Source of the DNA: Chitinophagaceae bacterium
Lineage (GTDB): Bacteria; Bacteroidota; Bacteroidia; Chitinophagales; Chitinophagaceae
Assembly: GCA_004322425.1 (NCBI GenBank)
Contig: SCVJ01000021.1
Coordinates: 1-64,000, forward strand
DNA length: 64,000 nt
Direction of reading: 5' to 3'
The notes under the pieces are model-generated. The model was given only the letters and a program-made list of their open reading frames with translations, had not been told where the DNA came from and made no database searches. The translations under genes were made by a program, and so were the position numbers. This document shows positions 1 through 16,835 of the stretch, one piece after another. Numbering within the stretch: the stretch's first letter is position 1; the number at the start of each line of letters is the position of its first letter.

Positions 1-3
1 GTT

Positions 4-77: not shown

Positions 78-88
78 CAAAATTTTTA

Positions 89-120
89 CCCTCAGCAAAA
101 AAGCTGAGGGATTTTTTTTT
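89..120 (+). terminator. Rho-independent terminator after tRNA-Asp
   Basis: An 8-bp perfect stem, ccctcagc (89-96) with gctgaggg (103-110), encloses an A-rich loop and is followed by a run of nine T. It ends the tRNA transcript and separates it from the polysaccharide locus. Confidence 0.92.
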
Positions 121-228
121 GATTAACGGCTTCAAAATTGAAGTATTATTTTTCTTATATTGTGTTAGTTTACTCTCAACCATTAAAACTAACTTTCTCT
201 GAAAAATAAAATATACCGTGTCGTTTTT

Positions 229-1791
229 TTGCTTCTGACAGTCGGGTTTGCGGTTTTTGCAAAGGCGCAATCCTTACCTGTGGGCTTTTCTGCTTTGGAA
301 GAGATGGCGCGAAATTTTCAATTGCAAGGGAAAATTAAGTCCGACTTTTCGTTTTCAGTTCGTCCGCTATTAACCGGTGTACAATTCAGTACAGATAGTT
401 TATTGCGGTTAGCCGATCCCAACATAAAAGGATTTACATTTAAGAAATCGTTCTTAAAAAACCATGGAACTTTTCAAATTCTGCCAGTAACCCTGTCTCA
501 AAAATATAATTCTCATCATCCTTTCGGATGGAATGATGCAGGTTTTATTCCTGCAAAGGGATTTCAAAACCAAATAAGTGCCGGTATTTTTTCTTCATTA
601 GGCCCACTCTCCATTCAGTTAAAACCTGAATTCGTTACAGCTGCAAATCCCAATTATGAGTATAATGCTATGTGGGGCTCGCCAACGCAGAATAGCTATA
701 AAAAAATATTTGCCGGACAATCTTCTGTTCGATTAAATAGTCGTTCTGTTTCTTTAGGCTATTCAACAGAAAATTTATGGTGGGGACCAGGGCAATTCAG
801 TTCTTTATTAATGAGCAATAACGCTCCGGGTTTTGAGCATTTAACGTTTAACACTGTTCGTCCATTAAAAACCCCAATCGGCAAATTTGAATGGCAGTTG
901 ATTACCGCAAAACTTAAAGACGATACATCCCAAGCTGTTTTTGAAAATTACAATTTAAAGCCTGCTGCCTATTTGAAAGACTGGGTATTTATGAATTCGC
1001 TATCGCTTGTTTTTCAACCGCGATTTATGCCCAATAGTTTTTGGGGATTTACACGAACGTTTTTGAAAAACAGCAGTTCAATGGGTACGGGAACTGTTGG
1101 ATTCATTGATAATTATTTACCGGTTTTCACTTCGCCTTTTAAAAAAGGAAATCCGGGCGAAGATGAAAAGGAACGCGATCAATTGGTAAGTCTTTTTATG
1201 CGTTTTTTATTTCCCAAAAGTCATGCTGAATTTTATTGGGAGTATGGCTGGAATGATCATAAATACAATTTAAGAGATCTTACCTTGGACGTGCAACATG
1301 CTGCAGCTTTTACTGCAGGGTTTAAAAAACTTTTCCCTTTGAAAAATGATACTTGGTTGGATATGGGAATGGAATTTAATCACATGGCACAGACAACAGA
1401 TTATATAGTTCGTAATGCTGGTAATTGGTATGTACACGGGCAAGGCTTGCAAGGTTATACCAATAAAAATCAAATTATGGGTGCAGGAAGTGGTTATGGA
1501 AATAATGTTCAAACAGTGGCCGCTAATTGGTGGAGAAAGATGAATAAAGTTGGAATAAAGTTTCAGCGAATTCAGCATGATCCCAAAGGACATACAGGCA
1601 CTCTCAATGTTTTAGGGATGCGGGCTGTGCAATGGAATGATATTTCAGTGGGGCTGAATGGTCAATATTATTATAAACGCTTTTTAGTGAATTCGGAAAT
1701 GCAATGGATCGATTCGCGAAATTATATCTGGGAGCAAGCTAATAATAAAAAGAATTTTTACTTGATGCTTCAATTAAGTTATTTATTGTGA
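229..1791 (+). CDS. Wzi-family capsule assembly outer-membrane protein, copy 1
   Basis: This is a predicted outer-membrane beta-barrel of the capsule-assembly Wzi family, which holds or assembles surface polysaccharide at the cell surface. The family signature is visible around residues 184-215: NLWWGPG, then MSNNAPGFEHL and a TxRPLKTPIG segment. Many alternating aromatic residues and a C-terminal strand ending YLL fit a barrel. The assigned start is TTG at 229, which leaves a signal peptide without a charged n-region. The frame is open upstream to 193, and a CTG at 199 would begin MKNKIYR followed by the same hydrophobic core, so the true start may be CTG 199. The stop overlaps the next gene by 4 bases, implying translational coupling with its paralogue. 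Confidence 0.85.
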   Translation: MLLTVGFAVFAKAQSLPVGFSALEEMARNFQLQGKIKSDFSFSVRPLLTGVQFSTDSLLRLADPNIKGFTFKKSFLKNHGTFQILPVTLSQKYNSHHPFGWNDAGFIPAKGFQNQISAGIFSSLGPLSIQLKPEFVTAANPNYEYNAMWGSPTQNSYKKIFAGQSSVRLNSRSVSLGYSTENLWWGPGQFSSLLMSNNAPGFEHLTFNTVRPLKTPIGKFEWQLITAKLKDDTSQAVFENYNLKPAAYLKDWVFMNSLSLVFQPRFMPNSFWGFTRTFLKNSSSMGTGTVGFIDNYLPVFTSPFKKGNPGEDEKERDQLVSLFMRFLFPKSHAEFYWEYGWNDHKYNLRDLTLDVQHAAAFTAGFKKLFPLKNDTWLDMGMEFNHMAQTTDYIVRNAGNWYVHGQGLQGYTNKNQIMGAGSGYGNNVQTVAANWWRKMNKVGIKFQRIQHDPKGHTGTLNVLGMRAVQWNDISVGLNGQYYYKRFLVNSEMQWIDSRNYIWEQANNKKNFYLMLQLSYLL

Positions 1792-3455
1792 GAAAGAAAT
1801 TAATACATATTGTAGTACTCGTTTGCCTCAGTTTCAATTCGATTTCACAATCCGGGATTGTTAGTGAAATAGAATTGACAGATACCAAAAGAATTGAACA
1901 ATTAACTGATTCTACATTTTCGGATAATTTATCTTTTCTTATTCGATCTTCTAGTCAATATAATTCGTTGCGTCAAACTTCAAATAAAAAGACAAAGTGG
2001 CCACAAGTAAACTTGTTGCATACAACTTATAGTGCGCAGCAAAATAGCAAGCTTTCTTTTGGTGGAAATGACGGTAACTTTTATCCGAATGTTGGTTTGC
2101 AGCAAAGAGCAAGTGTTGGTGTTGGAATAAAATGGTGGAAAATGTCTATTGAACTTTCTCCGGAGTGGGTTAGTGCTAATAATAAAATTCCAGAAACATT
2201 TTCAACCGATCCTTTATATGGTAATTATTGGCCTAAATACTATACATATGTTGTAAATAAAGTAGATATGCTAAGCAGGTTTGGAACAGAATCGCTAGAA
2301 AAGTTTTTTTATGGGCAATCGAATGTTCGGATTAATATTAAAAATTTATCGTTTGGAGTAAGTAATGAAAATTTATGGTGGGGACCGGGTTTGAGGAATT
2401 CATTAGTAATGACCAATAATGCTCCGGGATTTCTGCATGTTTCATTAAATACCATAAAACCTAAGAAAACAGTTATTGGAAGTTTTGAAGGACAGATTAT
2501 TATTGGAAAACTGGATAGTACTGGTTTTGAAAATCCAGATAACCCAATCATGAACACCATTTGGCCCGGAGGGATTGCAAAAAAACTTAATTACGAAAGG
2601 ATGATTAACGGAGTTGTTTTTACTTGGCAACCCATTTGGATGAAAAATTTTTATATCGGTTTTGCCAACACTACGCAATGGTACGTGAATGATTCTCTTC
2701 CATTGGGAAGATACATTCCTGTAATATTCCCTTTTTCTTTGAGCAAAGGAAAACCTCGAATGAAATTGGGTTCTATTTTTCTCAGATATGCTTTGCCAAA
2801 AGATAACGCAGAGTTTTATTTCGAATTTGGAAGAGCCGATAAAGCAGCCAATCCGGTTAATTTATTTGCCGACACTATTCCTATTGGTTATGTAGCGGGC
2901 ATTCGAAAATTATTTCCTTTAGCCAAGCGCAATCAATTTATTCAGTTTATGATTGAAGTAACACAGTTGCAACTTTCGGACAGTAGGCTGATAATGGACG
3001 AAAAAAATGTGTGGGGGCAAGGCAGAACTAAAAGTTGGTATATGGATAGTTACATTCAACAAGGATATTCAAATGCAGGACAATTGATGGGAGCTGCTAT
3101 TGGCCCGGGAAGTAATAGTCAAACAATTAATGTAGCTTGGGTTAATAAGCTAAAGAAAATCGGGATTCAATTGGAGCGTATTATTTATAATAAAGACTTT
3201 TATTATTACCATTATTTTAATGGGGAGTTATACAATGTATTTTCTCAAGGCGCCAACAACCATCATTGGGTGGATGTTATCTTAAATGCACACGTTCAAT
3301 GGGATTACAAGCAAGTTGTTTTTTCAGCTTCATATAATTCTATAAAATCATTAAACTATCGGTGGATAAAATTAGACGGCGGTTGGCAAGAGCCTTCCAA
3401 ATTATCCGATAGAAAAAATCAATCATTAGCTTTTTCAATTCGATATGGTTTGTAG
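1788..3455 (+). CDS. Wzi-family capsule assembly outer-membrane protein, copy 2
   Basis: A second Wzi-like barrel, 555 residues, starts at GTG 1788 inside the stop of copy 1. It begins with a signal peptide (RKKLIHIVVLVCLSFNSISQ, cleavage after about residue 20). The core again reads NENLWWGPGLRNS, then MTNNAPGFLHV and NTIKPKKTVIGSFEGQ, aligned with copy 1. It ends in a Phe/Tyr-rich beta segment (SLAFSIRYGL). Sequence and arrangement indicate an old tandem duplication, as the two are clearly diverged. It is probably in the same operon as the exporter that follows 82 bases later. Its specific role, alternative surface lectin or hetero-oligomer partner, cannot be read from sequence. Confidence 0.85.
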   Translation: MRKKLIHIVVLVCLSFNSISQSGIVSEIELTDTKRIEQLTDSTFSDNLSFLIRSSSQYNSLRQTSNKKTKWPQVNLLHTTYSAQQNSKLSFGGNDGNFYPNVGLQQRASVGVGIKWWKMSIELSPEWVSANNKIPETFSTDPLYGNYWPKYYTYVVNKVDMLSRFGTESLEKFFYGQSNVRINIKNLSFGVSNENLWWGPGLRNSLVMTNNAPGFLHVSLNTIKPKKTVIGSFEGQIIIGKLDSTGFENPDNPIMNTIWPGGIAKKLNYERMINGVVFTWQPIWMKNFYIGFANTTQWYVNDSLPLGRYIPVIFPFSLSKGKPRMKLGSIFLRYALPKDNAEFYFEFGRADKAANPVNLFADTIPIGYVAGIRKLFPLAKRNQFIQFMIEVTQLQLSDSRLIMDEKNVWGQGRTKSWYMDSYIQQGYSNAGQLMGAAIGPGSNSQTINVAWVNKLKKIGIQLERIIYNKDFYYYHYFNGELYNVFSQGANNHHWVDVILNAHVQWDYKQVVFSASYNSIKSLNYRWIKLDGGWQEPSKLSDRKNQSLAFSIRYGL

Positions 3456-3537
3456 CAACAGAACAAAATGACAATGAATTTTTTATGAGCTATAAACAAT
3501 CATTATTTCCTACATTTAACCTATAATTCAACAAAAC

Positions 3538-5979
3538 ATGAAGCTGCTGAAATATGTTTTAATTACGGTGATGGTTTGCTCGATGGGTGTACTTCATGCG
3601 CAGCAAATTCCTTCAAATATTGAAAACTTATCTAACCAACAGATACTAGAACTTATCTCTCAATTTCAGGTTAGTGGTTTATCGGAGGAGGATTTTGAAA
3701 TTAAGTTATTAGAAAAAGGGTTTACAGCTAATCAAATTTTACTCTTAAAAAAGCGTGTAGCCTCATTAAACACAAGTGGTATTCTAAACAATAGCAGTAA
3801 GATTTCAAATACAGATTCTTATTTAGAAAGGATTGGAATGTTAACCAAAAAACCTTCTTTAAAAAGAAGAGATTCGATTGGTGGGTTAAGAGTCTTTGGC
3901 GAAGAAATTTTTGAAAATGTCAATCTCAGTTTTGAGCCCAACTTATCTATTCCGGCACCTAAAAATTATATCATTGGTGTGAATGATCAGTTAGTCATTG
4001 ATGTGTTTGGTTTATCGGAAACAACCAAAAAATTAAAAGTAAATACAGAGGGGTTTATTCGTTATCCGAATTTAGGTCCCATAAAAGTAGCCGGTTATAC
4101 ATTGGAAGATGCACAACTGATAATTAAAAAGTCTTTAACAAAATTATATCCTGCTATTAATAGTGGGGCTACTTTAGTTCAAGTTTCAGTAGGGCAAATA
4201 AGAAGCATCCGTGTTACATTAATTGGCGAAGTAAAACAACCGGGCAGTTATTCTGTTTCTTCCTTATCAACTTTGATGAATGCGTTGTATGCGTCGGGAG
4301 GCCCCAATGAAATTGGGTCTTTTCGGAATATCGATCTTGTGAGAAATGGTAAATTAACTGTAACGTTTGATTTATATGATTTTTTATTAAAAGGCGATTT
4401 ATCTAAAAATATTTTGTTGCAAGATGAAGATGTGATTCGAATACATCCGTTTGAAACAAGAGTAGCGGTAATGGGAGCTATAAAAAAATCTGCACTTTTT
4501 GATGTGACAAATAATGAGTCTGCTTCAGATATCGTTCATTATGCCGGTGGTGTTTCTCCATTGGGCTTTAAAGATCTTATTCGAGTAAAAAGATTAGGCA
4601 CTACCAATAAAGAAATAATTACAGTTAGCATATCACAATTATCCACGTTTCATTTGCAATCTGGTGATACATTGGTTATTGATACGCTTGCAAATTATTT
4701 TGTAAATCGTGTTCAAATTAAGGGTGCAGTGTATTATCCCGGAGAATATAGTAATAGCAGTTTACCCACTTTGTTTGATTTATTAAATGTGGCTAAGCCT
4801 AAAGAAGGCGCATATTTTGATCGCGGATTATTGAGAAGATTAAAATCAGATTATACTTCCGAATTAATCAATTTTAATTTGGCTGATGTGATGAATAAAA
4901 AAATAGAAATAAAACTTGAAAGAGAGGACTCCATTCATATTTATCAAGTTAAAGATTTAAGAGAGCGATATACCGTTTCTATTAGTGGAGAAGTTAATGA
5001 ACCCAACACGTATGACTATTCCGATAAAATGCGTGTGGAAGATCTTGTATTAATTGCTGGTGGATATAAAGATGGCGCGGATTTGCATAAGATTGAAGTT
5101 TCAAGAAGGTTACCTAAATCTGCCAATGAAACTTTAGTCTATTCAATAATTAAAGAAATAGATTTACTAAAAAGAAACAAAGATGATTTGGAATTTTCAT
5201 TACAACCTTTTGATGTTATATCTGTTCGCAAATCTCCAAGTTACAAGGAGCAGATACATGCTCGAATAGAAGGTGAGATTTTATATCCCGGAAATTATAC
5301 GCTAGAAGGAAAGAAGGAGCGGATTTCCGATATGGTTCGCCGAGCAGGTGGATTGAAAGAAGATGCATTTGCAGAAGGAGCGGTTTTAATTCGCAAATCA
5401 TTTATAGGAAATTCTGAACCTGATTCGGTATTGTTTAATACAAAGTCAAACTTAATGGCTCCGCTTATAGAGTTGAATCAAAAAGAAGCGATTGCAGACA
5501 CTCAGCAATTAAATAGAATAAAGCAAAATTTTTATAAGCAACAAAAATTAGTTGGAATTAATTTATCCAAGGCTATCCAGTCTCCGGGTTCTGTGTTTGA
5601 TTTAATATTAAATGAAGGGGATGTGCTTAAAATTCCAAGGGAAATACAAACAGTACAGGCTTTTGGTGCCGTAAATGCACAACAACAAATTGCTTTTACA
5701 AAAGGAATGAGTTTTATAACACTCATTCAACAATCCGGTGGGTTTGCAATTAATGCTTCTCGAAGACACTCCTACGCAGTTTATGCCAACGGTGAAGTGC
5801 AGAGCACAAAAGGTTTTTTATTTTTTCTGCAATATCCAAAAGTAAAACCTGGAGTCGAAATATTTGTACCCCTCAAAAAAGAAAATAGACGTCTTTCATC
5901 AGGAGAAATTATTGGTATTGGTTCTGGAATAGCATCTATGGCAGGGTTAATTATTTCACTACTTAATGCAACTAAATAA
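3538..5979 (+). CDS. Wza-like polysaccharide export protein with multiple SLBB domains
   Basis: This is the outer-membrane/periplasmic exporter for exopolysaccharide. A signal peptide ends near LHAQQ (about residue 22). A Poly_export domain starts at about residue 139 (PAPKNYIIGVNDQLVIDVFG). It is followed by about six SLBB-type repeats, recognised by the pattern VxxxGxVxxPGxY, near residues 223, 306, 391, 478, 574 and 704. The third and sixth are the more degenerate. A C-terminal hydrophobic segment (about 790-810, IGIGSGIASMAGLIISLL) could form the outer-membrane helix. At 813 residues it is about twice the size of E. coli Wza but typical for long Bacteroidota versions. The Wzz-like gene follows 15 bases downstream. 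Confidence 0.92.
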   Translation: MKLLKYVLITVMVCSMGVLHAQQIPSNIENLSNQQILELISQFQVSGLSEEDFEIKLLEKGFTANQILLLKKRVASLNTSGILNNSSKISNTDSYLERIGMLTKKPSLKRRDSIGGLRVFGEEIFENVNLSFEPNLSIPAPKNYIIGVNDQLVIDVFGLSETTKKLKVNTEGFIRYPNLGPIKVAGYTLEDAQLIIKKSLTKLYPAINSGATLVQVSVGQIRSIRVTLIGEVKQPGSYSVSSLSTLMNALYASGGPNEIGSFRNIDLVRNGKLTVTFDLYDFLLKGDLSKNILLQDEDVIRIHPFETRVAVMGAIKKSALFDVTNNESASDIVHYAGGVSPLGFKDLIRVKRLGTTNKEIITVSISQLSTFHLQSGDTLVIDTLANYFVNRVQIKGAVYYPGEYSNSSLPTLFDLLNVAKPKEGAYFDRGLLRRLKSDYTSELINFNLADVMNKKIEIKLEREDSIHIYQVKDLRERYTVSISGEVNEPNTYDYSDKMRVEDLVLIAGGYKDGADLHKIEVSRRLPKSANETLVYSIIKEIDLLKRNKDDLEFSLQPFDVISVRKSPSYKEQIHARIEGEILYPGNYTLEGKKERISDMVRRAGGLKEDAFAEGAVLIRKSFIGNSEPDSVLFNTKSNLMAPLIELNQKEAIADTQQLNRIKQNFYKQQKLVGINLSKAIQSPGSVFDLILNEGDVLKIPREIQTVQAFGAVNAQQQIAFTKGMSFITLIQQSGGFAINASRRHSYAVYANGEVQSTKGFLFFLQYPKVKPGVEIFVPLKKENRRLSSGEIIGIGSGIASMAGLIISLLNATK

Positions 5980-5994
5980 GATTAGAAAAATACA

Positions 5995-7047
5995 ATGGCA
6001 GCTACCAAAGTAAATACAATAAGTTTAGAAGAAATATTTACAGAACTCATTTCTTTTCTAAATTTTATGTGGCAAAAACGTAGGTTGTTTTTATTACTTG
6101 CCATTGCAGGAATGTTGCTGAGTACGACTTATTATTTTTTTCAAAAACCTAAATATGAAGCCATATCAACTTTTATTTTAGAGGCTAAAGAGCCATCCGG
6201 TGGTGGATTGGCAGGTTTGGCTTCTCAATTTGGATTTGATATAAGTTCTATGTCTGGGAGTTCTAATTTATTTGGTGGCGATAATATTTTGGATATCATA
6301 AAGTCAAAATTCATCATTGAAAAAGTATTATTGTCTTCAGTTGATAATGATTCAAAAAACAGCAATCAAACATTAGCTGACTTATTCATAAATTTTAGTG
6401 GGCTACAAAAAAAAATGGGTAATGATTCTGAAGTCAGTAACCTGTTTTCTGAAATGAAAAATTCCAACCACTTTCTGCGAGACAGTATTTTGGAAGTGAT
6501 TTATATTAGAATAGTTGAACAACATCTAAAAGTTGAGTTAATCAGTAAAAAAGGTTCCATCCTTAAAGTGTCAACCACTTCACCCAACTCTATTTTTTCA
6601 AAATGCTTCACAGAAAGAGTAATTGAAGAAACTAAGAAATTTTATATTGATGTAAAAACAAGAAATGCTACTAATAATATTAAAGCATTAGAAATCAGAT
6701 CCGATTCTTTATTTCGAATTATTAATGAAAAATCAGGACAGTCGGCCACCTTGCAAATTGCTGATTTAAATCCAGCAATTAAAATAGCCGAAGTGCCTGT
6801 GGAAATATCTCAACGCGGAAAAATGGTAGCACTTGCGTTATACACAGAAGTGATGAAGAATTTGGAAGCTAGTAGGATGGGATTAGCCAATCAAACTCCG
6901 GTTATTCAAATTTTGGATACACCCAAATATCCGTTGGTTGATAAGAATAAATCTTTTTTTCTTTTAGGTTTACTAGGAATTGCAGCTGGATTTTTGTTTG
7001 GATTTCTTATTTGTTTCTTTTCTTTTTCACCCCGTCATTCTAATTAA
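5995..7047 (+). CDS. Wzz/GumC-like polysaccharide chain-length determinant, no kinase domain
   Basis: This is an inner-membrane polysaccharide co-polymerase. An N-terminal cytoplasmic stretch leads into a first transmembrane helix (about 33-51, RLFLLLAIAGMLLSTTYYFF). A periplasmic Wzz domain with a long helical region follows, and a second helix sits at about 322-344 near the C-terminus. The segment ILDTPKYPLVDKNKS just before the second helix is the usual Wzz pre-TM2 motif (P-x2-P). There is no Walker A/B or tyrosine-rich tail, so this is not a bacterial tyrosine autokinase, and no separate kinase or phosphatase gene is in the locus. It likely sets chain length together with the Wza-like and Wzy-like neighbours. 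Confidence 0.88.
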   Translation: MAATKVNTISLEEIFTELISFLNFMWQKRRLFLLLAIAGMLLSTTYYFFQKPKYEAISTFILEAKEPSGGGLAGLASQFGFDISSMSGSSNLFGGDNILDIIKSKFIIEKVLLSSVDNDSKNSNQTLADLFINFSGLQKKMGNDSEVSNLFSEMKNSNHFLRDSILEVIYIRIVEQHLKVELISKKGSILKVSTTSPNSIFSKCFTERVIEETKKFYIDVKTRNATNNIKALEIRSDSLFRIINEKSGQSATLQIADLNPAIKIAEVPVEISQRGKMVALALYTEVMKNLEASRMGLANQTPVIQILDTPKYPLVDKNKSFFLLGLLGIAAGFLFGFLICFFSFSPRHSN

Positions 7048-7065
7048 TTTTAGCATAAAAACTTT

Positions 7066-7908
7066 ATGCGAACTATTTTTTTGCTTCGTGCTTTTGGAGA
7101 TTTTTTAATTGCCATATACAGTTTTCGAAATGCCAAAAATAAAGCATCAGTAAGATTTGTAGCATCAAAACATCACGAAGCATTGTTTAAGGCGCTTCCA
7201 AAAATTTTGATTCCTCAAGATATTAAAATTGAGTTTGTTGATTTTGGCATTGATAAAACGTTGCTGCGATTTTTTACAAATAAGTTTTTCTTTAGTTCTA
7301 AAACAGTTCAAGAAATTAATAAAGTAAAAAAGAAAGTAAAAGAACTACAATTTGAAAACCTATTTGTAGAACAAAAGATGAGATTAAATATTTTCAAATT
7401 AGTTACAGGTTTCCCATTCAAAAGTATAGTGGATAAGCAAAATGTTTATAAGGCGTATTCAAATTATTTTGGAAATGAAGATGTTCAAAATAGTAAATTA
7501 GATTTTACAGTAACTGAAGAGTCAAGAATTTTAATTCTTCCATCAACTAGACAACTGAGAAAGGACTTTCCTGCCAAAGTGCTACAAAAGATAAGTGATC
7601 AAAGTAAGGCTAGAACTGAAAATGTAACCATTGGTTTTTACAAATTTTCTAAGCGAAACGATAAAAATTGTTTTATTTATAATGATTTTTCTGAATTGAT
7701 TAGTTATGTCGAAAATTCGGACTTTATTATTTGTGCTGATAGCTTGCAAGCACATTTAGCTCAATTTTTAGAAAAACCCCATTTTATTTTATATAACAAT
7801 CATCAGACACATAAGCAATTTTTAACGCCTTTTGCGGAACAAAATAATAGTTATGCTAATTTTAATAACTTAGAAAAACTTCATTATGTTTTCAATGCTT
7901 CATTATGA
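7066..7908 (+). CDS. GT9-like (heptosyltransferase-fold) glycosyltransferase
   Basis: A cytoplasmic glycosyltransferase of the GT-B fold. The N-terminus (IFLLRAFGDFLIAI) matches the GT9 entry motif RxxxxGDxxxxxP in weak form. The C-terminal half has the typical acceptor/donor-site signature around residues 220-242 (FIICADSLQAHLAQFLEKP), equivalent to the GDSGxxHLAAxLGxP of heptosyltransferases but with CADS. At 280 residues it is shorter than canonical WaaC/WaaF (about 320-350). Within this locus it probably adds a sugar to the lipid-linked repeat unit. The donor sugar cannot be inferred. The stop overlaps the next start by 4 bases. Confidence 0.72.
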   Translation: MRTIFLLRAFGDFLIAIYSFRNAKNKASVRFVASKHHEALFKALPKILIPQDIKIEFVDFGIDKTLLRFFTNKFFFSSKTVQEINKVKKKVKELQFENLFVEQKMRLNIFKLVTGFPFKSIVDKQNVYKAYSNYFGNEDVQNSKLDFTVTEESRILILPSTRQLRKDFPAKVLQKISDQSKARTENVTIGFYKFSKRNDKNCFIYNDFSELISYVENSDFIICADSLQAHLAQFLEKPHFILYNNHQTHKQFLTPFAEQNNSYANFNNLEKLHYVFNASL

Positions 7909-8612
7909 TTAAAGGATTTATCATTTCATCGATTTACGAATTGGATAGGAAGCACAATGTGGAATTGTTAAAGCAATCATTACCTGAATTGAAAGAAGTT
8001 GAAGCCGTATATCCCCAATTTCAAAAAATTCCTTTTTTAAATAAAATTTTGAATACATCTAAAAGTCGTACCAGGCATGAATTGCGCTTGGGTGAGTTGG
8101 GATGTTTGTTAAGTCATCGAAAAATTTGGAGAAAAATTGTGAGTACAGAAAAAGATGAAACATTTTTAATAACAGAATCGGATAGTTTGTTAATAAATGT
8201 TGATGTATTGCAATCACAATTTGATGTTATCTCCAAACTTTATGATTTATTTTTTTGGGGTGCATGGGATGGGCATATAAAATTATTAAAGAGTACAATA
8301 AATGAAGTAGGAAAAAATATTTTCATTGGGGAACCGTTCATTAAAACAGTTTATTGTACGTACGGATATTCTTTAAATAGAAGGGCTGCTGTTTATTTAC
8401 TTGACAAAACCAGAAAGGTTGCACACCCTGTCGATCAGTTTAAAAAATTTGTTGACACAAATGATTTACGAATAGGAGCCATTTTGCCCGAGGTAATTTC
8501 TACTATTAATACGGAGAGTACAATCAAAGGCAGGATAAACAATAATTTTCTTAAAAAAATATTTCTATTTATTTTAGATTGCAAGAATAATTTAATCTGT
8601 TATTTTAAATGA
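7905..8612 (+). CDS. GT25-like glycosyltransferase (LPS/EPS biosynthesis)
   Basis: A probable family 25 glycosyltransferase (LgtB/LpsA-like). The N-terminus GFIISSIYELDRKHNVELLK resembles the start of this family. GELGCLLSHRKIWRKIV (about residues 62-78) is the characteristic GT25 block (GCxxSHxxxW), followed by ETFLITESDSLL, corresponding to the D/E-D region. A Tyr/Gly-rich segment around 145-155 (YCTYGYSLNRRAAVYLL) matches the conserved GxxGYxxxxxxA block. At 235 residues it is usual size. Start ATG lies within the stop of the GT9-like gene and its stop overlaps the polymerase gene, so translation is coupled. The sugar transferred is unknown. Confidence 0.78.
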   Translation: MIKGFIISSIYELDRKHNVELLKQSLPELKEVEAVYPQFQKIPFLNKILNTSKSRTRHELRLGELGCLLSHRKIWRKIVSTEKDETFLITESDSLLINVDVLQSQFDVISKLYDLFFWGAWDGHIKLLKSTINEVGKNIFIGEPFIKTVYCTYGYSLNRRAAVYLLDKTRKVAHPVDQFKKFVDTNDLRIGAILPEVISTINTESTIKGRINNNFLKKIFLFILDCKNNLICYFK

Positions 8613-9868
8613 ACTCAATAATAAAAATATATTTAAATCTGTATGTGTTTGTATACGCATTATATGTTTTTTTTAATAAAGGGATTTCGTATAGTTTTTT
8701 GGCGGAAGGTGTTTTAGCTCTAGGTGTTGTATTGATTTTTCTCAACAGGAAGTCGTATAAAATTTTGTTGGACAAACGAGTTTATTTATTGCTCTTTTTT
8801 CTTTTTATAACTACTATTTATTTCATTAGAGGAACGATGAACTTTGATTGGTTCAGCGTTACAAGAGATGCATTTATGTTTTATTATATTTTGTTTGCAT
8901 TCATAATGTTTTTGTTTCAGGATGAATTGCCATACTTATTTAAGCGATTGTGCTTGATTTATAAATGGTTTCCATTGGTGGCTTGTGTCTCTTTCTTATC
9001 GCTGGCTTATGTTCCTTTTTTTAGTGCTTTAAAAATTTTCGGCAACAATCATTTGTTGTTATATAAGTCGGGAGATATGGCCGTTCATTTGTTTATTTCA
9101 AGCATTTTATTTTTGAATGGATACATTCAAGTGTCTAAAAGATTCTTGATTGTTAATGCTGTTCTGGTTATCTATTTATTTTTTATTACTTCCACTTATA
9201 GCAGAGGAGGAATGCTCGCTTTTATTCTTGCATTTTGTATTTATCTATATTTTTCAAAAGAAATCAAAGGGAAAGCAATATTGAGTACATATGGAAAATA
9301 TTTACTCATTATAATTATCATTACTTTCCCTTTATTTTTAATGACAAATGTTAAAGAAAATTTTCAGGGAAGAAAACTTGGTATTGACCAGTTGAAAGAA
9401 AATATAGTCAGCATTGTTAATCCTAATATAGAAGGAACGTTAAGTGATAATAAGATTTGGAGATTGGTGTGGTGGTCCAAAATTGTTCAATACACTTTTG
9501 GCGGTGAATATTTTTTACAAGGTAAAGGGTTAGGAATGAGTTTGGTGGCTACTGATGAAATTATTACGGATGATGCGGAGCTTCGTTCTCCACATAATTT
9601 TCATTTGAATATTTTAGCCAGATTTGGGGTTCCCATTTTCTTGGTGTGGCTTTGCTGGCTCTTTTTCCATTTTAAAAAAATACGAGATAAAAAAGAAAAT
9701 CAATTTCAATTAATGATTCTTGCTATGATGATTGCTTTCATTATTAATGCAACATTTGATGTTTTTCTTGAAGGGCCGATGGGAGCTTTTCCTTTTTGGA
9801 CATTGGTTGGCATTAGTTATGTGGCGGATACTTTTGAAATTCAAATGACCCCAATTTTGAAAAGTTAA
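8609..9868 (+). CDS. Wzy-like O-antigen polymerase/ligase family membrane protein
   Basis: A polytopic inner-membrane protein of 419 residues with about ten predicted transmembrane helices. A large extracytoplasmic loop lies between roughly residues 250 and 335, as in Wzy polymerases and WaaL ligases. The loop contains SPHNFHLNILARFG (about residues 327-340), the histidine-bearing motif found near the active site of these proteins (HNxxL). TYSRGGMLAF near residue 195 is the usual conserved Arg segment. Given its place next to a flippase and an initiating transferase, polymerase is the better guess than ligase. No nearby lipid A core genes support a ligase role. Confidence 0.85.
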   Translation: MNSIIKIYLNLYVFVYALYVFFNKGISYSFLAEGVLALGVVLIFLNRKSYKILLDKRVYLLLFFLFITTIYFIRGTMNFDWFSVTRDAFMFYYILFAFIMFLFQDELPYLFKRLCLIYKWFPLVACVSFLSLAYVPFFSALKIFGNNHLLLYKSGDMAVHLFISSILFLNGYIQVSKRFLIVNAVLVIYLFFITSTYSRGGMLAFILAFCIYLYFSKEIKGKAILSTYGKYLLIIIIITFPLFLMTNVKENFQGRKLGIDQLKENIVSIVNPNIEGTLSDNKIWRLVWWSKIVQYTFGGEYFLQGKGLGMSLVATDEIITDDAELRSPHNFHLNILARFGVPIFLVWLCWLFFHFKKIRDKKENQFQLMILAMMIAFIINATFDVFLEGPMGAFPFWTLVGISYVADTFEIQMTPILKS

Positions 9869-9880
9869 AAAATTATTAAT

Positions 9881-11170
9881 GTGAATTTTATTTTGCAAAC
9901 AATCCGAAAGAAGTTTCAATATCTAATAAATCTTTGCGCTACATTTTTATCTCAAATTGCTAGTGCTGCTTCTGTTATTATTCTTACCCCTGTTTTATTA
10001 AGCGGGTTGAGCGCTGAACAGTTTGGATTATATGGAGTGCTATTGAATGTAATTGTCCTATCATCTGTATTTGATTTTGGACTCAATATTGGGTTGCTTC
10101 GAAAATTAATTTTCAATAAAGAAGATGCTGTAAGTCTCATTAACACACTTTTTTTCTTTTTCAGTATTCTTTTTATAACGAGCATTCCGATTTTTTATTT
10201 ATTATTTTCTGTTGATTTGATTCATACTGGAAACTCTTATTTTTTCTTTGCTTGTGTAATTGGTGTATTGATTTTACAAAATGTATTGGCCCTTTTTTTT
10301 GACGTAATCATACAGGTAGAAAATAAAATTTATGTAGGTAAAATTATTCGTGTAAGTAAAATTATAGCAGAAACAACGGTATTAATTTTTCTGAGTAAAC
10401 AGGGTTCTATTCAATTATTATTAATTGCTAGTGTTGGGATTAACTTTTTGTACATTTTATCGCTTTTTATATTCTCTAAAAAAGTTGTTAACTATAAACT
10501 TTCTTTATATAATTTTCGTTTTAGTACTTTATTAAGTCATATTCGATATAGCTTTTGGTATTTCCTAAATGCACTTGCCGGAGCAATGGTTTTCAATGCT
10601 CAGGTAATTGTGATTAGCGGAGTAGTGGGAGCAGTCATGGCAGCAAAATTTATTTTGGTAACTCGGTTTTTTGATATCATTCGCATTGGGCTTACAAATT
10701 TTACGACTATTTTGTTTCCTTTTTTGGCGATGAAACAAGCTGAAGAAAATTATGCTCATATAAAAAGTATGTTCTTAAAAATATTCAAAAGAGTCATTCT
10801 GCTTTCAGGATTAACATTAATTCTGACTATGACTGTGGGGCAACAAATTTTTAAAGTTTGGAATCAACAAGCGGATATTTTAACAATGGATTTGTATAAG
10901 TGGGTTGCAATATTTGTCACATTAGTTGTGATAGATAATGTACCTACTGTTTTTTTAAATGCTTTAAAATTGAATACCTATCAAACTATCATTGCCATAG
11001 TTCAAGGAATATTGGGTTTAATATTGGGATATATTTTTCTTCTTGAATTTGGGCTTATTGGAGTGGGGATTGCTTCTATTGTTGCCTTACTTGTTACAAA
11101 TTTTTTCTTTAGTCCAATTTATTTACTTAGGGCTATCAATAAAAAATTAACTTCGGGACATATTAAATAG
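9881..11170 (+). CDS. Wzx-like polysaccharide flippase (MOP superfamily)
   Basis: An integral membrane protein of 429 residues with about 12-14 hydrophobic helices distributed along its length, as in the polysaccharide transporters of the MOP (MATE/Wzx) superfamily. The opening region (QIASAASVIILTPVLLSGLSAEQFGLYGVLLNVI) carries the typical SAEQFGLYxxL segment, and FDFGLNIGLLRKL follows. It should flip the undecaprenyl-linked repeat across the inner membrane for Wzy-type polymerisation. GTG at 9881 is the start; no ATG near it fits better. It lies 12 bases after the polymerase gene. Confidence 0.9.
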   Translation: MNFILQTIRKKFQYLINLCATFLSQIASAASVIILTPVLLSGLSAEQFGLYGVLLNVIVLSSVFDFGLNIGLLRKLIFNKEDAVSLINTLFFFFSILFITSIPIFYLLFSVDLIHTGNSYFFFACVIGVLILQNVLALFFDVIIQVENKIYVGKIIRVSKIIAETTVLIFLSKQGSIQLLLIASVGINFLYILSLFIFSKKVVNYKLSLYNFRFSTLLSHIRYSFWYFLNALAGAMVFNAQVIVISGVVGAVMAAKFILVTRFFDIIRIGLTNFTTILFPFLAMKQAEENYAHIKSMFLKIFKRVILLSGLTLILTMTVGQQIFKVWNQQADILTMDLYKWVAIFVTLVVIDNVPTVFLNALKLNTYQTIIAIVQGILGLILGYIFLLEFGLIGVGIASIVALLVTNFFFSPIYLLRAINKKLTSGHIK

Positions 11171-11175
11171 TATTT

Positions 11176-11943
11176 GTGTTTGTTAGACAAAAATTAGAGA
11201 AAGTAAACATTGCTGGAGTTGGGATTTCAAATATTAATTTGAAGGAAATGTTGGAAATATTTAGCTCTGCAATTTCCAATAATCAAAAGATACGTGTATG
11301 TGTAACACCTGTCAATTGCATAGTTAAAGCAAATAAAGATGAATTTCTTAAAAATATTTACAATACTGCCGATGTAGTACTTTGTGATGGAATGCCGATT
11401 TTATGGGCATCTCATTTTATTAATAAACCATTAGCAGCACGTATTACAGGTTTGGACGTATTGCCTCTCTTTAGCGAGATTTGTTCTCAAAAAGGATATT
11501 CTTCATTTTATTTAGGAGCTAAAAGTGGAGTGGGTGATTCACTTAAATCCAAATTAATCAGTATGTTTCCTGAATTGAAAGTAGTTGGAGTTTATAGTCC
11601 ACCAATAGCAGAAAAATTTTTGGAAGAAGAAAATCAAAAAATAATATCAATGATTAATGAAGCAAAGCCAAATATTCTATGGGTTAGCTTAACGGCTCCC
11701 AAACAAGATCGTTGGATTTATTCTCATTATGATAAAATTGACGCTAATATAATTATAGGAATAGGAGGCGCATTTGAAGTTGCTGCTGGGTTATTGAAAC
11801 GAGCTCCCAAATGGATGCAACAATCAGGATTGGAATGGTTATATAGATTTTTGCAAGAACCTGTTCGATTGTTTCATCGTTATTTTATAGAAGCACCTAA
11901 GTTTTTTCCTATGGTATTGAAACAAAAAATAAAAAATAATTGA
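11176..11943 (+). CDS. WecG/TagA/CpsF-family glycosyltransferase (GT26)
   Basis: A GT26 transferase, the family that adds the second sugar (often an N-acetylmannosamine derivative) to a polyprenyl-linked primer. Family blocks are present: VTPVNCIVKANKD at about residue 43 (TPN variant), ADVVLCDGMPILWAS (about 68-82), ARITGLDVLPLF, and LWVSLTAPKQDRWI at about 160-173 (PKQE variant). The C-terminal GIGGAFEVAAG...RAPKWMQQSGLEWLYRFLQEP is diagnostic. Length 255 is normal. The start is GTG 11176, five bases after the flippase stop. Its position just before the initiating transferase gene suggests it works on that enzyme's product. Confidence 0.93.
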   Translation: MFVRQKLEKVNIAGVGISNINLKEMLEIFSSAISNNQKIRVCVTPVNCIVKANKDEFLKNIYNTADVVLCDGMPILWASHFINKPLAARITGLDVLPLFSEICSQKGYSSFYLGAKSGVGDSLKSKLISMFPELKVVGVYSPPIAEKFLEEENQKIISMINEAKPNILWVSLTAPKQDRWIYSHYDKIDANIIIGIGGAFEVAAGLLKRAPKWMQQSGLEWLYRFLQEPVRLFHRYFIEAPKFFPMVLKQKIKNN

Positions 11944-11947
11944 AAGT

Positions 11948-13351
11948 ATGACTAGTGGCTCTAGAATAAATTATATAATTAGATTTTATCTGGATATTTT
12001 CTCGTTGGCATTACTTTACTTCCTAACAAAAATAGTCATTGGTGTTCCAGATAATTCTATTCAGTCACTAACAGTCCAGATAATTATTATTATAAGCTTG
12101 ATTAGTTGGTATATCTCTGCTTTTGTTTTCCAACTCTATTTAGATATAAGTATTATTTCATTTTCTCAGGAGCTGATCAATTTTTTCAAAGTAGTTTTAA
12201 TCCATTTATTAATTCTGGCTTTTGTTCTTTTTATGATTTCAAATGACTTCAAAAGTTATCGACCATTAATTATTTTTTATAATCTAGGCATCATAATTTT
12301 TATTCCAATTCAAAAATATCTTTATCGTGTGGTGGCAGCTTTCGTTCGAAAGCAATATAAGTTTGAGAAAAAAATTATTATAGTCGGAAGTAAATTTTCG
12401 GAAGCACTATCAAAAAGTTCGTCACTGTCAAATAATGATCTTCGGTATAAAATTCTGGGTATTATTGAGGATGAACAAAATGGATTTTCAAATGAAAAAT
12501 ATTTAGGAAACATTACACAGTTAAGCACTGTGCTAAAAGAGATGGAGGTTGATGAAGTAATGCTGGCCTTGCCTGTAGCTGAAACTAAAAAAATTAATGA
12601 AGCAATTTCTGTTTGCGAAAAAGCACAAACTAGAGTTAGTATATTAGCCGATATGAATAATTATGGTACGGCAGTTTTAAAAGCAACAAATTATGCCGGA
12701 TTCCCGGTTGTTAATATTCGTCAATATCCGTTGGACGACTTGGAGAACAAGTTTTTTAAGAGAGTATTCGATATTATTTTTTCTACTCTATTTCTTATTT
12801 TTATTTTCAGTTGGTTATTTCCAATCATTGCAGTTTTAATCAAACTAACATCAAAAGGTCCTATATTTTTTAAGCAACATCGTTGGGGGTTGTACAATGA
12901 AAAAATTGATTGCTTAAAGTTTCGAACAATGTATGTGGGCAGTCCACAATTAAATGATGATGGGGAGTATCTACATACTTCAAAAAATGACCAAAGAGTA
13001 ACATCAATTGGTAAAATATTGCGCAAAACAAGTTTTGATGAACTGCCACAATTCTTAAACGTATTAGCTGGAACTATGTCAATCGTTGGGCCAAGACCTC
13101 ATCCCGTACCGTTGTCAATAGAAGCAAAAGCGCAAATACAAAATTATATGTTGCGTCATCTTGTAAAACCCGGCACAAGCGGGTGGGCACAGGTAAATGG
13201 GAGTAGAGGAGAAGTGCAATCCCCACAAGAAATGCAAAGAAGAGTTAATTTCGATATTTGGTACATTGAAAATTGGAGTTTTGGATTAGATTTTCAAATT
13301 ATTTTTCAAACCATCATAAATATGATAAAAGGCGATGAAAAAGCATATTGA
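11948..13351 (+). CDS. Polyprenyl glycosylphosphotransferase (initiating sugar transferase, WcaJ/WbaP type)
   Basis: This enzyme starts repeat-unit synthesis by moving a sugar-1-phosphate from a nucleotide sugar to undecaprenyl phosphate at the inner membrane. The N-terminal half has four transmembrane helices, then a CoA-binding-like domain (KKIIIVGSKFSEAL, about 137-150). A fifth hydrophobic segment sits near residues 277-300. The catalytic C-terminal domain shows GPIFFKQHRWG, CLKFRTMYV, TSFDELPQFLNVLAGTMSIVGPRPH and KPGTSGWAQVNGSRGE, all hallmark motifs. The length of 467 is typical of the five-helix class. The sugar (glucose or galactose are usual) is not determinable. The stop overlaps the next gene by 17 bases. 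Confidence 0.95.
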   Translation: MTSGSRINYIIRFYLDIFSLALLYFLTKIVIGVPDNSIQSLTVQIIIIISLISWYISAFVFQLYLDISIISFSQELINFFKVVLIHLLILAFVLFMISNDFKSYRPLIIFYNLGIIIFIPIQKYLYRVVAAFVRKQYKFEKKIIIVGSKFSEALSKSSSLSNNDLRYKILGIIEDEQNGFSNEKYLGNITQLSTVLKEMEVDEVMLALPVAETKKINEAISVCEKAQTRVSILADMNNYGTAVLKATNYAGFPVVNIRQYPLDDLENKFFKRVFDIIFSTLFLIFIFSWLFPIIAVLIKLTSKGPIFFKQHRWGLYNEKIDCLKFRTMYVGSPQLNDDGEYLHTSKNDQRVTSIGKILRKTSFDELPQFLNVLAGTMSIVGPRPHPVPLSIEAKAQIQNYMLRHLVKPGTSGWAQVNGSRGEVQSPQEMQRRVNFDIWYIENWSFGLDFQIIFQTIINMIKGDEKAY

Positions 13352-14924
13352 TTGTAATTTTCAAAGAACTATTGTTTTAGTGTTAGGTTTATTATTTTTT
13401 TTGCCAACACAAGTGTTCTCCCAAATCGCTTTGGAAAGGCATTCGAATGAAGTATATCACTATTTAGCACGCATGGCTCAAAAAGGTATAATCTCGTTTG
13501 ACGATATCATCCTTCCCCTTTCAAAAAATAAAATTAAAAACGAGTTAGATAGTGTTCAATCCAAATCTGCGTTATTAACAGAAGTTGAAAAATCTGAATT
13601 ATTATTTTATTCTAAAGAATTTTCAGAAAATAAGTTTGAAAAAAAATTAACATTTCAAAGAGGCTCATTCTCACTTTCACTTAATCCTTTAGTTACCATT
13701 AATCGATTTAATCGCAAGGGAAAATCTTTTATGCAAACAAGTGGTGGAGTTCAATTTTATGGAAATGCTTCTAGTAAAATTGGGTTTCAATTTTCTTTTC
13801 TTGATTATACAGAAAAAGGTCAAGGCATACAATTTGTACGAAATAGGTTAATTGACGGATCGTCCGCCGGTATTATTTCCTATGATACATTTAATAGAAA
13901 GAGAATAAATTATGCAGAAATTAGGACTTCGATCAGTTATCAATTTAAGAAAGGTCAACTAAGTATTGGACAAGATTATTTAAATTTTGGATATGGTGAA
14001 AATGGAAGAATTGTGTTAGGAGATAAAGCACCAACCTATCCTTTTATTCGATGGGACTATCAATTGTTGAAGGGTATAAAGTTTAATTTTATACACAGTT
14101 GGCTTCAGTCTGGGTTAGTGGATTCTTCTCGTTCGTATACAATACCGGGTGGGGGTTTTGGAGGTATTCGTGAAGTGGATATTTCAAAATATATGGCGAT
14201 ACATAGTTTAGATTTTACAATAAAAAAAGGTTTGGTTTTTACTCTTGGCGAGTCAATGATTTATAATGATAAACTAAACGTGGGTTATTTTATTCCTATA
14301 ATGTTTTTTAAAGCGTTTGATAATTACAGCAATAGAGGTTCTATCGTAAAAGGTTCGAATGGCCAATTTTTTCTTCAATTAAATGCACGTAATCAATTAC
14401 CGAAAACACATTTTTACGCATCACTGTTGGTTGATGAAATAAAAATTTCTAAAATATTGGATAAAAAAGCTGCTCGCAATCAATTAGGTTATACTGTCGG
14501 CGGATCTATTACAGACCTTGGCGTTTCTTATTTAACTGCAGGTGCTGAATACACTAGAATTAGGCCTTTTGTTTATTCCAATTTTTTACCTGCTCAGAAT
14601 TATTCGAGTTCGGGATATTCAATTGGAGATTGGATGGGAAACAATTCCGATCGAATCATTTTATTTTTAAAATACACTCCGATTCCGAAATTAAAATTGT
14701 TGGCCCGTTATCAGCAAATACGGAAAGGTGGATTAGGTACAATCGACCAGCAATACAACCAACAACCGCAACCCGATTTTTTATTTGATTTTCAAACTAC
14801 TCAAAAAGATATTTTTTTACAGGCAAAATATGAATGGTTACATCGCTTCTGCTTTAACGTAACTTATAACCGGTATTCCAAATCTGCTACTTTTTCTTCA
14901 GCCGGTTTTACGTTTGGATTATAA
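13335..14924 (+). CDS. Wzi-like capsule assembly outer-membrane protein, copy 3
   Basis: A 529-residue secreted beta-rich protein. After a signal peptide (hydrophobic core about 13-27, ending VFSQ) it has a short helical domain, LARMAQKGIISFDD..., like the N-terminal part of many Wzi-like proteins. The rest is a predicted barrel with frequent Tyr/Phe/Gly, including LSIGQDYLNFGYGENGRIVLGDKAP (about 212-236), the place where Wzi has its GPG motif. It lacks the NLWWGPG sequence of copies 1 and 2, so it is a more distant relative and assignment rests on general pattern plus location. It overlaps the initiating transferase gene, so it belongs to the operon. Confidence 0.62.
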   Translation: MKKHIDCNFQRTIVLVLGLLFFLPTQVFSQIALERHSNEVYHYLARMAQKGIISFDDIILPLSKNKIKNELDSVQSKSALLTEVEKSELLFYSKEFSENKFEKKLTFQRGSFSLSLNPLVTINRFNRKGKSFMQTSGGVQFYGNASSKIGFQFSFLDYTEKGQGIQFVRNRLIDGSSAGIISYDTFNRKRINYAEIRTSISYQFKKGQLSIGQDYLNFGYGENGRIVLGDKAPTYPFIRWDYQLLKGIKFNFIHSWLQSGLVDSSRSYTIPGGGFGGIREVDISKYMAIHSLDFTIKKGLVFTLGESMIYNDKLNVGYFIPIMFFKAFDNYSNRGSIVKGSNGQFFLQLNARNQLPKTHFYASLLVDEIKISKILDKKAARNQLGYTVGGSITDLGVSYLTAGAEYTRIRPFVYSNFLPAQNYSSSGYSIGDWMGNNSDRIILFLKYTPIPKLKLLARYQQIRKGGLGTIDQQYNQQPQPDFLFDFQTTQKDIFLQAKYEWLHRFCFNVTYNRYSKSATFSSAGFTFGL

Positions 14925-14964
14925 CTAATTTTTTTTATCATTTCTTGAGAGAACATTCAGATAT

Positions 14965-14984
14965 TTACATTGAAATTAATGTAA
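14965..14984. repeat. Inverted repeat immediately before a start codon
   Basis: A perfect 7-bp inverted repeat, ttacatt (14965-14971) and aatgtaa (14978-14984), with a 6-base spacer, ends one base before the ATG at 14986. It could be an operator for a dimeric regulator, a weak hairpin over the initiation region, or chance in AT-rich DNA. Confidence 0.3.
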
Positions 14985-14985
14985 A

Positions 14986-15816
14986 ATGCTTCGATCGCTA
15001 CTAGTTATAACTTGGAATGGAATAGAGAACCCTTTTGCTGCCGTACATGCAGACGTAAAGCCAGACTTTGATATCCTACTATTTAATTATTCAGGAAATG
15101 GAAAAATCCCTAATTATTCTACAGTAATTCCTAATTATCTTGTTTCTCATTCTACTGAAAACAAGGGACAAGTGTTTGAACAGGTTTGTTATTTTTTGGA
15201 ACAAGAAAATAAAACTTCATACGAGTATGTTGGTGTGTATGATGATGATCTTATTTTTAAAATTTCCGATATTAATTCTATGCTTCATCTTGCTCAATTT
15301 CATAAATTGGATGTTTTTCATGCTTCCATTTCACACGATAGTTATTTCAGTCATAGAAGATTTCTCCATAAGTCATCATTGTTTTTGGAAGTAGTAGAAT
15401 GGGTAGAAATTATGGCGCCATTTTATCGGGAAGAAATTTTTAAAAAATGTTTACCTTATTTTAAAAAAGCAATTTCCGCACATGGTATTGACTGCTTTTT
15501 AGTTCCTGTACTACAGCGGATTCTCAAGAGAACTAATACGGCATTAATTCACGCCGTAATGATAAAACATAGCAGGCCTGTAAAAAGTCATCAACGAATT
15601 TATTCCAACAATAAAACAAGTGATGAAGAAACAGAATTGATCAGACAAGAAGCAATTTCTTTAGCTCAAAAGTATCCTGAACTTTTTGATGAAAATTTTT
15701 ACAGAAAAATTTTGAAAGTTGGCAATGAACATTTATTAGAGGCTGAGGATAAATTAATCAAGGTTAAAAAACTCATTATGGGATTTTGGACAAAGGCCAA
15801 GAACGAAGCCAATTAG
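14986..15816 (+). CDS. DUF707-like, probable glycosyltransferase-type protein
   Basis: A 276-residue soluble protein. A YEYVGVYDDDLIF segment (about residues 76-88) resembles the DxD metal/nucleotide-sugar site of GT-A enzymes. Farther on, VEWVEIMAPFYREEIF (about 143-158), HGIDCFLVPVL (about 169-179) and a terminal IHAVMIKHSRPV (about 191-202) fit the block order I associate with DUF707 proteins. This last match is from memory and needs a profile search. No signal peptide or membrane helix is visible. It follows the third Wzi gene by 61 bases on the same strand, so it is probably the last gene of the polysaccharide locus. Function is not established. Confidence 0.6.
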   Translation: MLRSLLVITWNGIENPFAAVHADVKPDFDILLFNYSGNGKIPNYSTVIPNYLVSHSTENKGQVFEQVCYFLEQENKTSYEYVGVYDDDLIFKISDINSMLHLAQFHKLDVFHASISHDSYFSHRRFLHKSSLFLEVVEWVEIMAPFYREEIFKKCLPYFKKAISAHGIDCFLVPVLQRILKRTNTALIHAVMIKHSRPVKSHQRIYSNNKTSDEETELIRQEAISLAQKYPELFDENFYRKILKVGNEHLLEAEDKLIKVKKLIMGFWTKAKNEAN

Positions 15817-15863
15817 AAAAAGCAATAATATATTAATTCATAAATTCGCTACAATACCAAATT

Positions 15864-16835
15864 ATGCCAGTCAATTCTAAACGTCAATTTCTCGATTTTG
15901 AAAAACCCATCAAAGATCTTGTTGATACTATTGAAAAGTATAAGCATGACGAGGAAAAGACGAAAGTGAATATGTCGGATTCCATAAATAAGTTGGAGTT
16001 AAATATTTTAGAGCAACGAAAAGAAATAACCACAAGCTTGAGTAACTGGCAACGTGTTCAATTAAGCCGTCATCCAGATAGACCTTACACACTGAAGTAC
16101 ATTAATAATATGACTTCAGATTTTGTAGAATTATTTGGCGACAGAAATGTAAAAGATGATAAAGCAATGGTTGGTGGATTTGCCAATTTGAATGGTCAGA
16201 CAGTTATGATTATTGGGCAACAAAAAGGTATCAATACCAAAACACGGCAACTACGAAATTTTGGAATGGCAAATCCCGAGGGATATCGCAAAGCTCTCCG
16301 CTTGATGAAGTTGGCAGAAAAATTTAATAAGCCCATCATTACGTTAATCGATACACCCGGTGCATTCCCTGGTTTAGAAGCAGAAGAAAGAGGCCAAGGT
16401 GAGGCTATTGCGAAGAATATTTATGAAATGATGCGGCTTAAAGTACCAGTAATTTGTGTGGTTATTGGTGAGGGAGCCAGTGGTGGCGCATTAGGAATTG
16501 GTGTTGGCGATCGTGTATTTATGATGGAAAATACTTGGTACACTGTTATAAGCCCCGAAAGCTGCTCTTCAATTTTGTGGCGGAGTTGGGAGAAAAAAGA
16601 GATTGCTGCCGAGCAATTGAGATTGACTGCTACAGAGATGCTTGGATTTGGGTTGATTGATGGAATTATTCCAGAGCCAATTGGTGGGGCTCATTGGGAT
16701 TATCTTGAAGCAGCACAAATACTTAAAGATTTTTTAGCACCCATTTTAAAAATGTTACAACAAAGCTCATCCGAAGAAAGAGTAAATCAGCGTATAGAAA
16801 AATTTGGTAAAATGGGTTTTTGGGAAGAAGTTTAA
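15864..16835 (+). CDS. accA: Acetyl-CoA carboxylase carboxyltransferase subunit alpha
   Basis: AccA pairs with AccD to move the carboxyl group from biotin to acetyl-CoA, giving malonyl-CoA for fatty acid synthesis. The 323 residues match the family length (E. coli 319) and cover it fully. The N-terminal helix begins [10 protein letters not shown]. The crotonase-fold core contains [87 protein letters not shown] and [11 protein letters not shown]. accD is not adjacent. dapA follows 24 bases downstream on the same strand. Confidence 0.97.

Follow-up and report, generated by a model that had tools for sequence, protein, structure and literature searches.

Why should one polysaccharide locus encode three Wzi-type outer-membrane barrels, when a single Wzi serves the textbook capsule system of E. 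coli? We addressed this question for a run of twelve genes at positions 229–15816 of the window, the 64,000-nucleotide stretch analysed here (Chitinophagaceae bacterium, GenBank assembly GCA_004322425.1), whose base 1 is the first base of the 86.6-kb contig SCVJ01000021.1. The barrel genes are called wziA, wziB and wziC. The reading that we favour, at a probability of roughly 0.6, is that this is a Wzx/Wzy-dependent surface polysaccharide operon whose three barrels are polymer-binding proteins, acting after export in assembly or retention. Wzi proteins, Wzy loci and the linkage of Wzi with OPX genes are already known. The literature consulted, which comprised titles, opening lines of abstracts and excerpts of papers, did not describe the recurrence of three distinct Wzi lineages in a single locus.

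Gene content of the operon

Twelve co-directional open reading frames (ORFs) occupy the plus strand, with intergenic distances of −17 to +82 bp:

229–1791, +: WziA, Wzi-type outer-membrane barrel (PF14052; model compared with 2ynk); true start probably near 199
1788–3455, +: WziB, Wzi-type barrel (PF14052), tandem partner of WziA with a 4-bp overlap; recurrent pair
3538–5979, +: OPX (Wza-like) exporter (Poly_export, several SLBB)
5995–7047, +: Wzz-type co-polymerase, kinase-less (PF02706, hydropathy)
7066–7908, +: GT9-type glycosyltransferase (PF01075)
7905–8612, +: GT25-type glycosyltransferase (PF01755)
8609–9868, +: Wzy polymerase (PF04932, hydropathy)
9881–11170, +: Wzx flippase (aligned members match PF01943; hydropathy)
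11176–11943, +: GT26 (WecG/TagA/CpsF) glycosyltransferase (PF03808; TIGR00696 above cut-off)
11948–13351, +: WcaJ-type undecaprenyl-phosphate glucose phosphotransferase, the initiating enzyme (TIGR03023)
13335–14924, +: WziC, third Wzi-type barrel, starting 17 bp inside the end of wcaJ (fold model; PF14052 below threshold)
14986–15816, +: DUF707-like protein, putative glycosyltransferase (PF05212 below threshold; orthologues in loci L058, L060 and L061)

Most of these assignments cleared the family cut-offs. The glycosyltransferases scored 26.0 bits for GT9 (cut-off 22), 55.8 for GT25 (24) and 194 for GT26 (27.4), and the OPX protein matched Poly_export and SLBB repeats in Pfam. Wzy matched Wzy_C at 42.4 bits (31.7) and has nine hydrophobic segments. 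The initiating transferase scored 214 bits against Bac_transf (27) and passed the NCBIfam glucose-type equivalog TIGR03023, WcaJ (418.9 against 410.75 bits). Wzz reached 28.3 bits (25.5), with two hydrophobic segments and no kinase domain reported. Wzx alone was weak against PF01943 (Polysacc_synt, E = 0.039), and a search of the PDB with its profile gave no match at E ≤ 0.01; four of its seven aligned members matched PF01943 at E ≤ 0.01 (best 3.7e-15), and Wzx has ten hydrophobic segments. The DUF707-like protein stayed under its cut-off (20.1 against 24.1 bits), with three of four aligned members matching at E ≤ 0.01. An initiating transferase, flippase, polymerase, Wzz and OPX in one tight gene run place the locus in the Wzx/Wzy pathway, and the family matches together with orthologues in other genomes rule out chance ORFs. 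The original prediction, made from the letters of this DNA alone, had described such a compact, single-strand Wzx/Wzy locus with a kinase-less Wzz, and this description was confirmed.

No protein of the genome exceeded the TIGR01007 cut-off for a bacterial tyrosine kinase (BY-kinase; best 69.9 against 108.05 bits), and the BY-kinase on or beside the co-polymerase that marks a group 1 capsule was not found. The genome holds three Bac_transf proteins and a second export locus (L102; contig C143 of G000, positions 1–5751) with an OPX gene, a Wzz-like gene, a UDP-sugar dehydrogenase and a GDP-mannose 4,6-dehydratase. The supposition that sugar donors are either common or made elsewhere is thus borne out in part, as the gene content of the second locus is consistent with some nucleotide-sugar donors being made outside the operon.

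Fold, lineage and distribution of the barrels

The original prediction had also counted three Wzi-like proteins. By profile this stood for WziA (69.1 bits against PF14052) and WziB (67.8 bits) but failed for WziC, which at 26.6 bits fell under the cut-off of 30.1; a whole-genome PF14052 search at E ≤ 0.001 likewise listed WziA and WziB and missed WziC. All 15 aligned WziC members matched PF14052 at E ≤ 0.01 (best 2.8e-12), and the fold model brought WziC back into the count. PDB sequence searches gave no match for WziA at E ≤ 10 and, for WziC, one sialidase at 0.46, which was not useful.

AlphaFold models were made for WziA from eight sequences (A and B types together) and for WziC from 15. 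The WziA model (predicted local distance difference test, pLDDT, 67.5; predicted template modelling score, pTM, 0.74) aligned best with E. coli Wzi, 2ynk, in VIA-align (Z 28.4, 393 residues, 3.2 Å; next Z 19.1), and 2ynk was also first in Foldseek (E = 1.1e-14; next 2.5e-9). The WziC model (pLDDT 66.5, pTM 0.68) has helices at 39–49, 64–76 and 83–96 followed by 18 strands, counted from the listed elements. It shares this layout with E. coli Wzi, in which N-terminal helices precede an 18-stranded barrel (PMC3791409; papers given by PMC number are cited from excerpts throughout). The Wzi fold, an 18-stranded barrel with an N-terminal helical bundle, is therefore predicted for WziC, and for WziA with a weakly defined N-terminus. 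For WziC the best solved match in VIA-align was again 2ynk (Z 23.4, 365 residues, 3.7 Å; next Z 21.3). We conclude that WziC is probably Wzi-like by fold, though not a Pfam member; the evidence is good but less sharp, because the margin of 2ynk over OpdO in VIA-align was only about 2 and the top 50 Foldseek structures did not include 2ynk but were porins of the OprD/Occ, OmpC/OmpF, BenF and MOMP types. For WziB, kinship with Wzi is indicated by its sequence. A RemB-type gliding-motility protein was rejected, as no barrel had an NCBIfam match at E ≤ 1, and a search of literature titles for such a link yielded nothing usable.

The three barrels belong to distinct lineages. In a quick tree, the A rows (12, support 100), B rows (12, support 78) and C rows (26, support 94) each fell on one side of a branch, alongside four rows of single-barrel A-like proteins (S rows, support 99) and four distant solo homologues (U rows, support 100). 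The S rows came from four of the nine genomes that have A without C, and the U rows from four genomes; L014 (same contig as L058), L018, L022, L023 and L025 were omitted, and smaller loci of genomes that were not refetched were left off. The A and C groups each span several genera, and the tree did not support a recent duplication of one Wzi gene. Within the window's genome, a WziA query finds the adjacent WziB, yet not WziC. Between the window and a genome of the same genus (G267), identity was 77, 79 and 66% for the barrels, comparable to OPX (71%), Wzy (70%) and WcaJ (63%), and so none of the barrels shows clearly quicker decay than the rest of the operon. One WziC row, from a record titled Sphingomonadales (L015), is 52% identical to the window's WziC and pairs in the tree with a Bacteroidetes-titled row; its bin name or contig is probably misassigned.

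Related bacteria often carry these barrel types in combination. WziC orthologues (E < 1e-100; next listed match 3e-21) and WziA relatives (E ≤ 0.001; every best match below 1e-70) were each found in 26 of 294 genomes of the family, the two 294-genome samples being treated as identical since their handles agree. Seventeen genomes hold both, where about 2.3 are expected (Fisher test, 4.6e-15), and ten genera are shared between the 13 and 14 that hold the two types, among 101 (Fisher test, 1.3e-8), although both tests ignore shared ancestry. In 11 of the 17 genomes A and C lie on one contig, at most 15 kb apart in ten; they are 40 kb apart in G095 and on different contigs in the other six genomes. 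Each type was also found without the other, in nine genomes either way, and A and C are therefore not obligate partners. Strong orthologues of the operon's Wzy (E < 1e-100) occurred in only seven of the 294 genomes, all within the set with A and C; the distribution of the barrels therefore extends beyond this one polymer type.

At E ≤ 1e-30, WziC relatives were found in 32 of 395 genomes across the phylum, and WziA relatives in 18 of 298 across the order, including one genome from outside the family. PF14052 alone found three separate Wzi genes in five of 198 genomes of the order, all of genus g8; the window's genome is not among them because PF14052 misses its WziC. Weaker WziC matches only were seen in 196 of the 294 family genomes. 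The four such homologues viewed (25–30% identity; L083–L086) lay outside loci of this kind, with neighbours including amidohydrolase and MutS-like genes in L085 and L086, and were set aside as another lineage; the WziC query found no weaker homologue in the window's genome.

The neighbourhood comparison proposed with the original prediction showed that the three-barrel set recurs in related genomes. The full set of twelve genes reappears, in the window's order, in two loci, L058 (G267) and L061 (G249); the GT26 match of L061 is split across two frames. A WcaJ-type gene lies within 1.6 kb of wziC in 23 of the 26 genomes with WziC, the window's included. In 20 of them it precedes wziC on the same strand, at 160 bp or less in 19 and at 966 bp in G125, and in three it is present on the downstream side only; none was found beside wziC in G207, G250 and G320. 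By locus, WcaJ is downstream of wziC in L015, L016 (on the opposite strand) and L017, and L018 has none. Eleven of the 26 genomes have an OPX gene no more than 500 bp behind wziC. Among the 11 fetched relative loci with full-length A and B, wziA and wziB overlap or lie at most 13 bp apart in ten, and are 1.3 kb apart in L065. Where A occurs without C, the A-type barrel stands directly behind WcaJ in three of four genomes viewed (L087, L088 and L090, not L089).

Start sites and surroundings of the operon

The wziA frame has no ATG in place and stays open upstream; read from CTG 199 it gives LKNKIYRVVF..., and this CTG aligns with the ATG that starts the orthologue in G267. The gene probably does not begin at the listed TTG 229, which would leave it a very short signal peptide, and CTG 199 is a plausible alternative. 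Towards the other end of the operon, wcaJ and wziC overlap by 17 bp (13335–13351), and their BLAST matches overlap in six of the 26 genomes, including the window's. Such overlap suggests that an inner-membrane enzyme and an outer-membrane barrel are translationally coupled.

Next 3′ of the twelve genes are accA and dapA. The 5′ side holds two further features:

4–78, +: tRNA-Asp (gtc), at the upstream edge of operon and contig
89–110: terminator-like hairpin, between tRNA-Asp and wziA

In the window the operon thus occupies the interval between tRNA-Asp and accA. In a genome of the same genus with no operon at accA (G335; L099, positions 14003–16785), accA is preceded at about 230 bp by a tRNA-Asp on the opposite strand, and a distant WcaJ-like gene (27%) lies just past this tRNA and one further ORF. 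A tRNA was found in none of seven relative loci, and there was no tRNA-Asp in the 18 kb viewed upstream of the G267 operon; a general role of tRNA-Asp in integration was not supported by these loci. G+C content (32.3% in the locus, 34.3% in the remainder of the window) was not decisive for a foreign island, and within the region neither promoter-like sites (65 against 72.0) nor terminator-like sites (8 against 8.4) exceeded shuffled sequence.

Export, barrel roles and rival readings

What might three barrels do? The OPX protein bears directly on this question. It is 813 aa long, with a signal peptide (by eye and hydropathy), no obvious lipobox by eye, and a hydrophobic C-terminal helix predicted by hydropathy at about residues 791–809. 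A hydrophobic C-terminus was likewise seen in all 11 loci compared, the window's and ten relatives (the L075 OPX being a 306-residue C-terminal fragment cut by the locus end). Its length and C-terminal segment do not fit the composite-translocon type, a short OPX without an outer-membrane-spanning helix. Pfam reported neither a GfcC nor a Wza_C domain in it, so any class assignment is tentative. As the OPX is long and has this helix, the barrels are unlikely to be the export pore and are more likely Wzi-like polymer-holding proteins.

The locus resembles the E. coli and Klebsiella group 1 (K30) system (PDB 2YNK; PMC3791409) in combining a Wzy-dependent pathway with a Wzi-type barrel, and in placing a barrel at the 5′ end (PMC12220298). 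Unlike K30, which has one Wzi, it has three barrels of distinct lineages, and its Wzz is without a tyrosine kinase. Wza is a lipoprotein of a class with a median of 378 aa, in contrast to the exporter here, which resembles the long, helix-ended class 2B, with a median of 824 aa (PMC9603273). Wzi homologues beside OPX genes are common, with 133 full-length and 28 barrel-only examples near all OPX classes (PMC9603273, Table 1), while the excerpts of that paper give no description of three Wzi types in one locus. The excerpts of PMC6707917 and PMC12419801 deal broadly with Wzi-like proteins, or with a Wzi-like barrel fused to TonB in a different operon, and not with this arrangement.

Myxococcus EpsX/EpsY also pairs an outer-membrane barrel with an OPX in a Wzx/Wzy locus (PMC9601211), and one of the barrels here could by analogy be the export channel itself, in a composite translocon with OPX. 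A role in export has been proposed for plugless Wzi-type barrels, as porins (PMC9603273), the export porin AlgE is among the structural neighbours of WziC (Z 20.2) and WziA (Z 18.7), and the frequent OPX gene close behind wziC would fit. However, EpsX/EpsY combines a short, helix-less OPX with an AlgE-like barrel, and composite systems mostly use OPX proteins of at most 280 aa lacking the C-terminal helix (PMC9601211), whereas here a long OPX accompanies Wzi-like barrels and the WziC model has the three-helix N-terminal domain of Wzi. We regard an export channel as improbable. It is also unlikely, in our view, that the barrels serve different polymers, with WziC belonging to this operon and WziA and WziB to another polymer or to lipopolysaccharide as mere gene neighbours. 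The second OPX/Wzz locus on contig C143, where the 12 kb viewed contain no ORF similar to the Wzi types of the window, could supply such a polymer; the A–B pair of G095 stands far from C, and A-type barrels occur in genomes without C, in three of four cases directly behind WcaJ. Yet all three barrels share one tight operon here, its order recurs in L058 and L061, and A and C are close neighbours in ten of the 11 one-contig genomes.

Plain redundancy, in which duplicated Wzi genes would share a single overlapping function, seems very improbable. The adjacency of A and B, and their similarity in the WziA search, would suit it; the failure of the same query to find WziC, the recurrence of A and C across several genera and the even divergence of barrels and operon between the window and G267 speak against it. 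A further possibility, which we consider doubtful, is that WziA and WziB combine into a heteromeric lectin of the outer membrane that works with WziC, a separate WcaJ-linked barrel; WziC would take the chain at the OPX exit and A–B would organise it into a layer, all for one polymer. Heteromeric assembly, also raised in the original prediction, would fit the adjacency of wziA and wziB in ten of 11 loci, but the distance correlations are mixed. Over 11 loci, and with no species-tree control, the Pearson distance correlation was highest for A–B (0.86; other pairs 0.53–0.75). By Spearman, A–B was third of six pairs (B–OPX 0.81, B–C 0.70, A–B 0.62, A–C 0.60, C–OPX 0.50, A–OPX 0.38). The correlations do not single out A–B, and the reading is less probable because the rank correlation does not favour A–B over other pairs. 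If true, it would replace the single lectin by a multi-barrel surface assembly machine of WziC and A–B.

Several results also weigh against the reading that we favour, namely three Wzi-type barrels holding or assembling the polymer after export. WziC lies below the Pfam cut-off, its Foldseek matches are porins and its VIA-align margin is small. Both barrel models are of middling confidence, and much of the WziA N-terminus is at a pLDDT of about 50 or below, so that the plug is poorly defined. The tree was quick, its B group is weakly supported (78), and treekit gave a warning about long branches that meet between the U rows and the A/B/S side. The co-occurrence tests take no account of ancestry, and A and C each occur without the other in nine genomes.

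For polymer binding, division of labour and export route we infer the following course, whose steps follow established knowledge of the named families. WcaJ would load the first sugar, predicted to be glucose, onto undecaprenyl phosphate; GT26, GT9, GT25 and perhaps the DUF707-like enzyme would add the remaining sugars. Wzx would flip the unit and Wzy polymerise it, governed by the kinase-less Wzz, and the long OPX would export the chain, probably via its own helical pore. The three barrels would then act at the outer membrane, in polymer-binding assembly or retention like E. coli Wzi, with WziC as the barrel that accompanies the WcaJ gene, and in many cases OPX, and WziA and WziB as an added pair. 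They probably do separate jobs, since the same three types often co-occur in related bacteria. The alternative surface anchoring suggested in the original prediction is compatible with this course.

We read the locus as a recurrent three-barrel surface module on an otherwise standard Wzx/Wzy pathway. How Wzy-type polymers are held on Gram-negative cells is not fully understood, and three distinct Wzi-type barrels in one operon offer a natural system for separating the roles of such factors.

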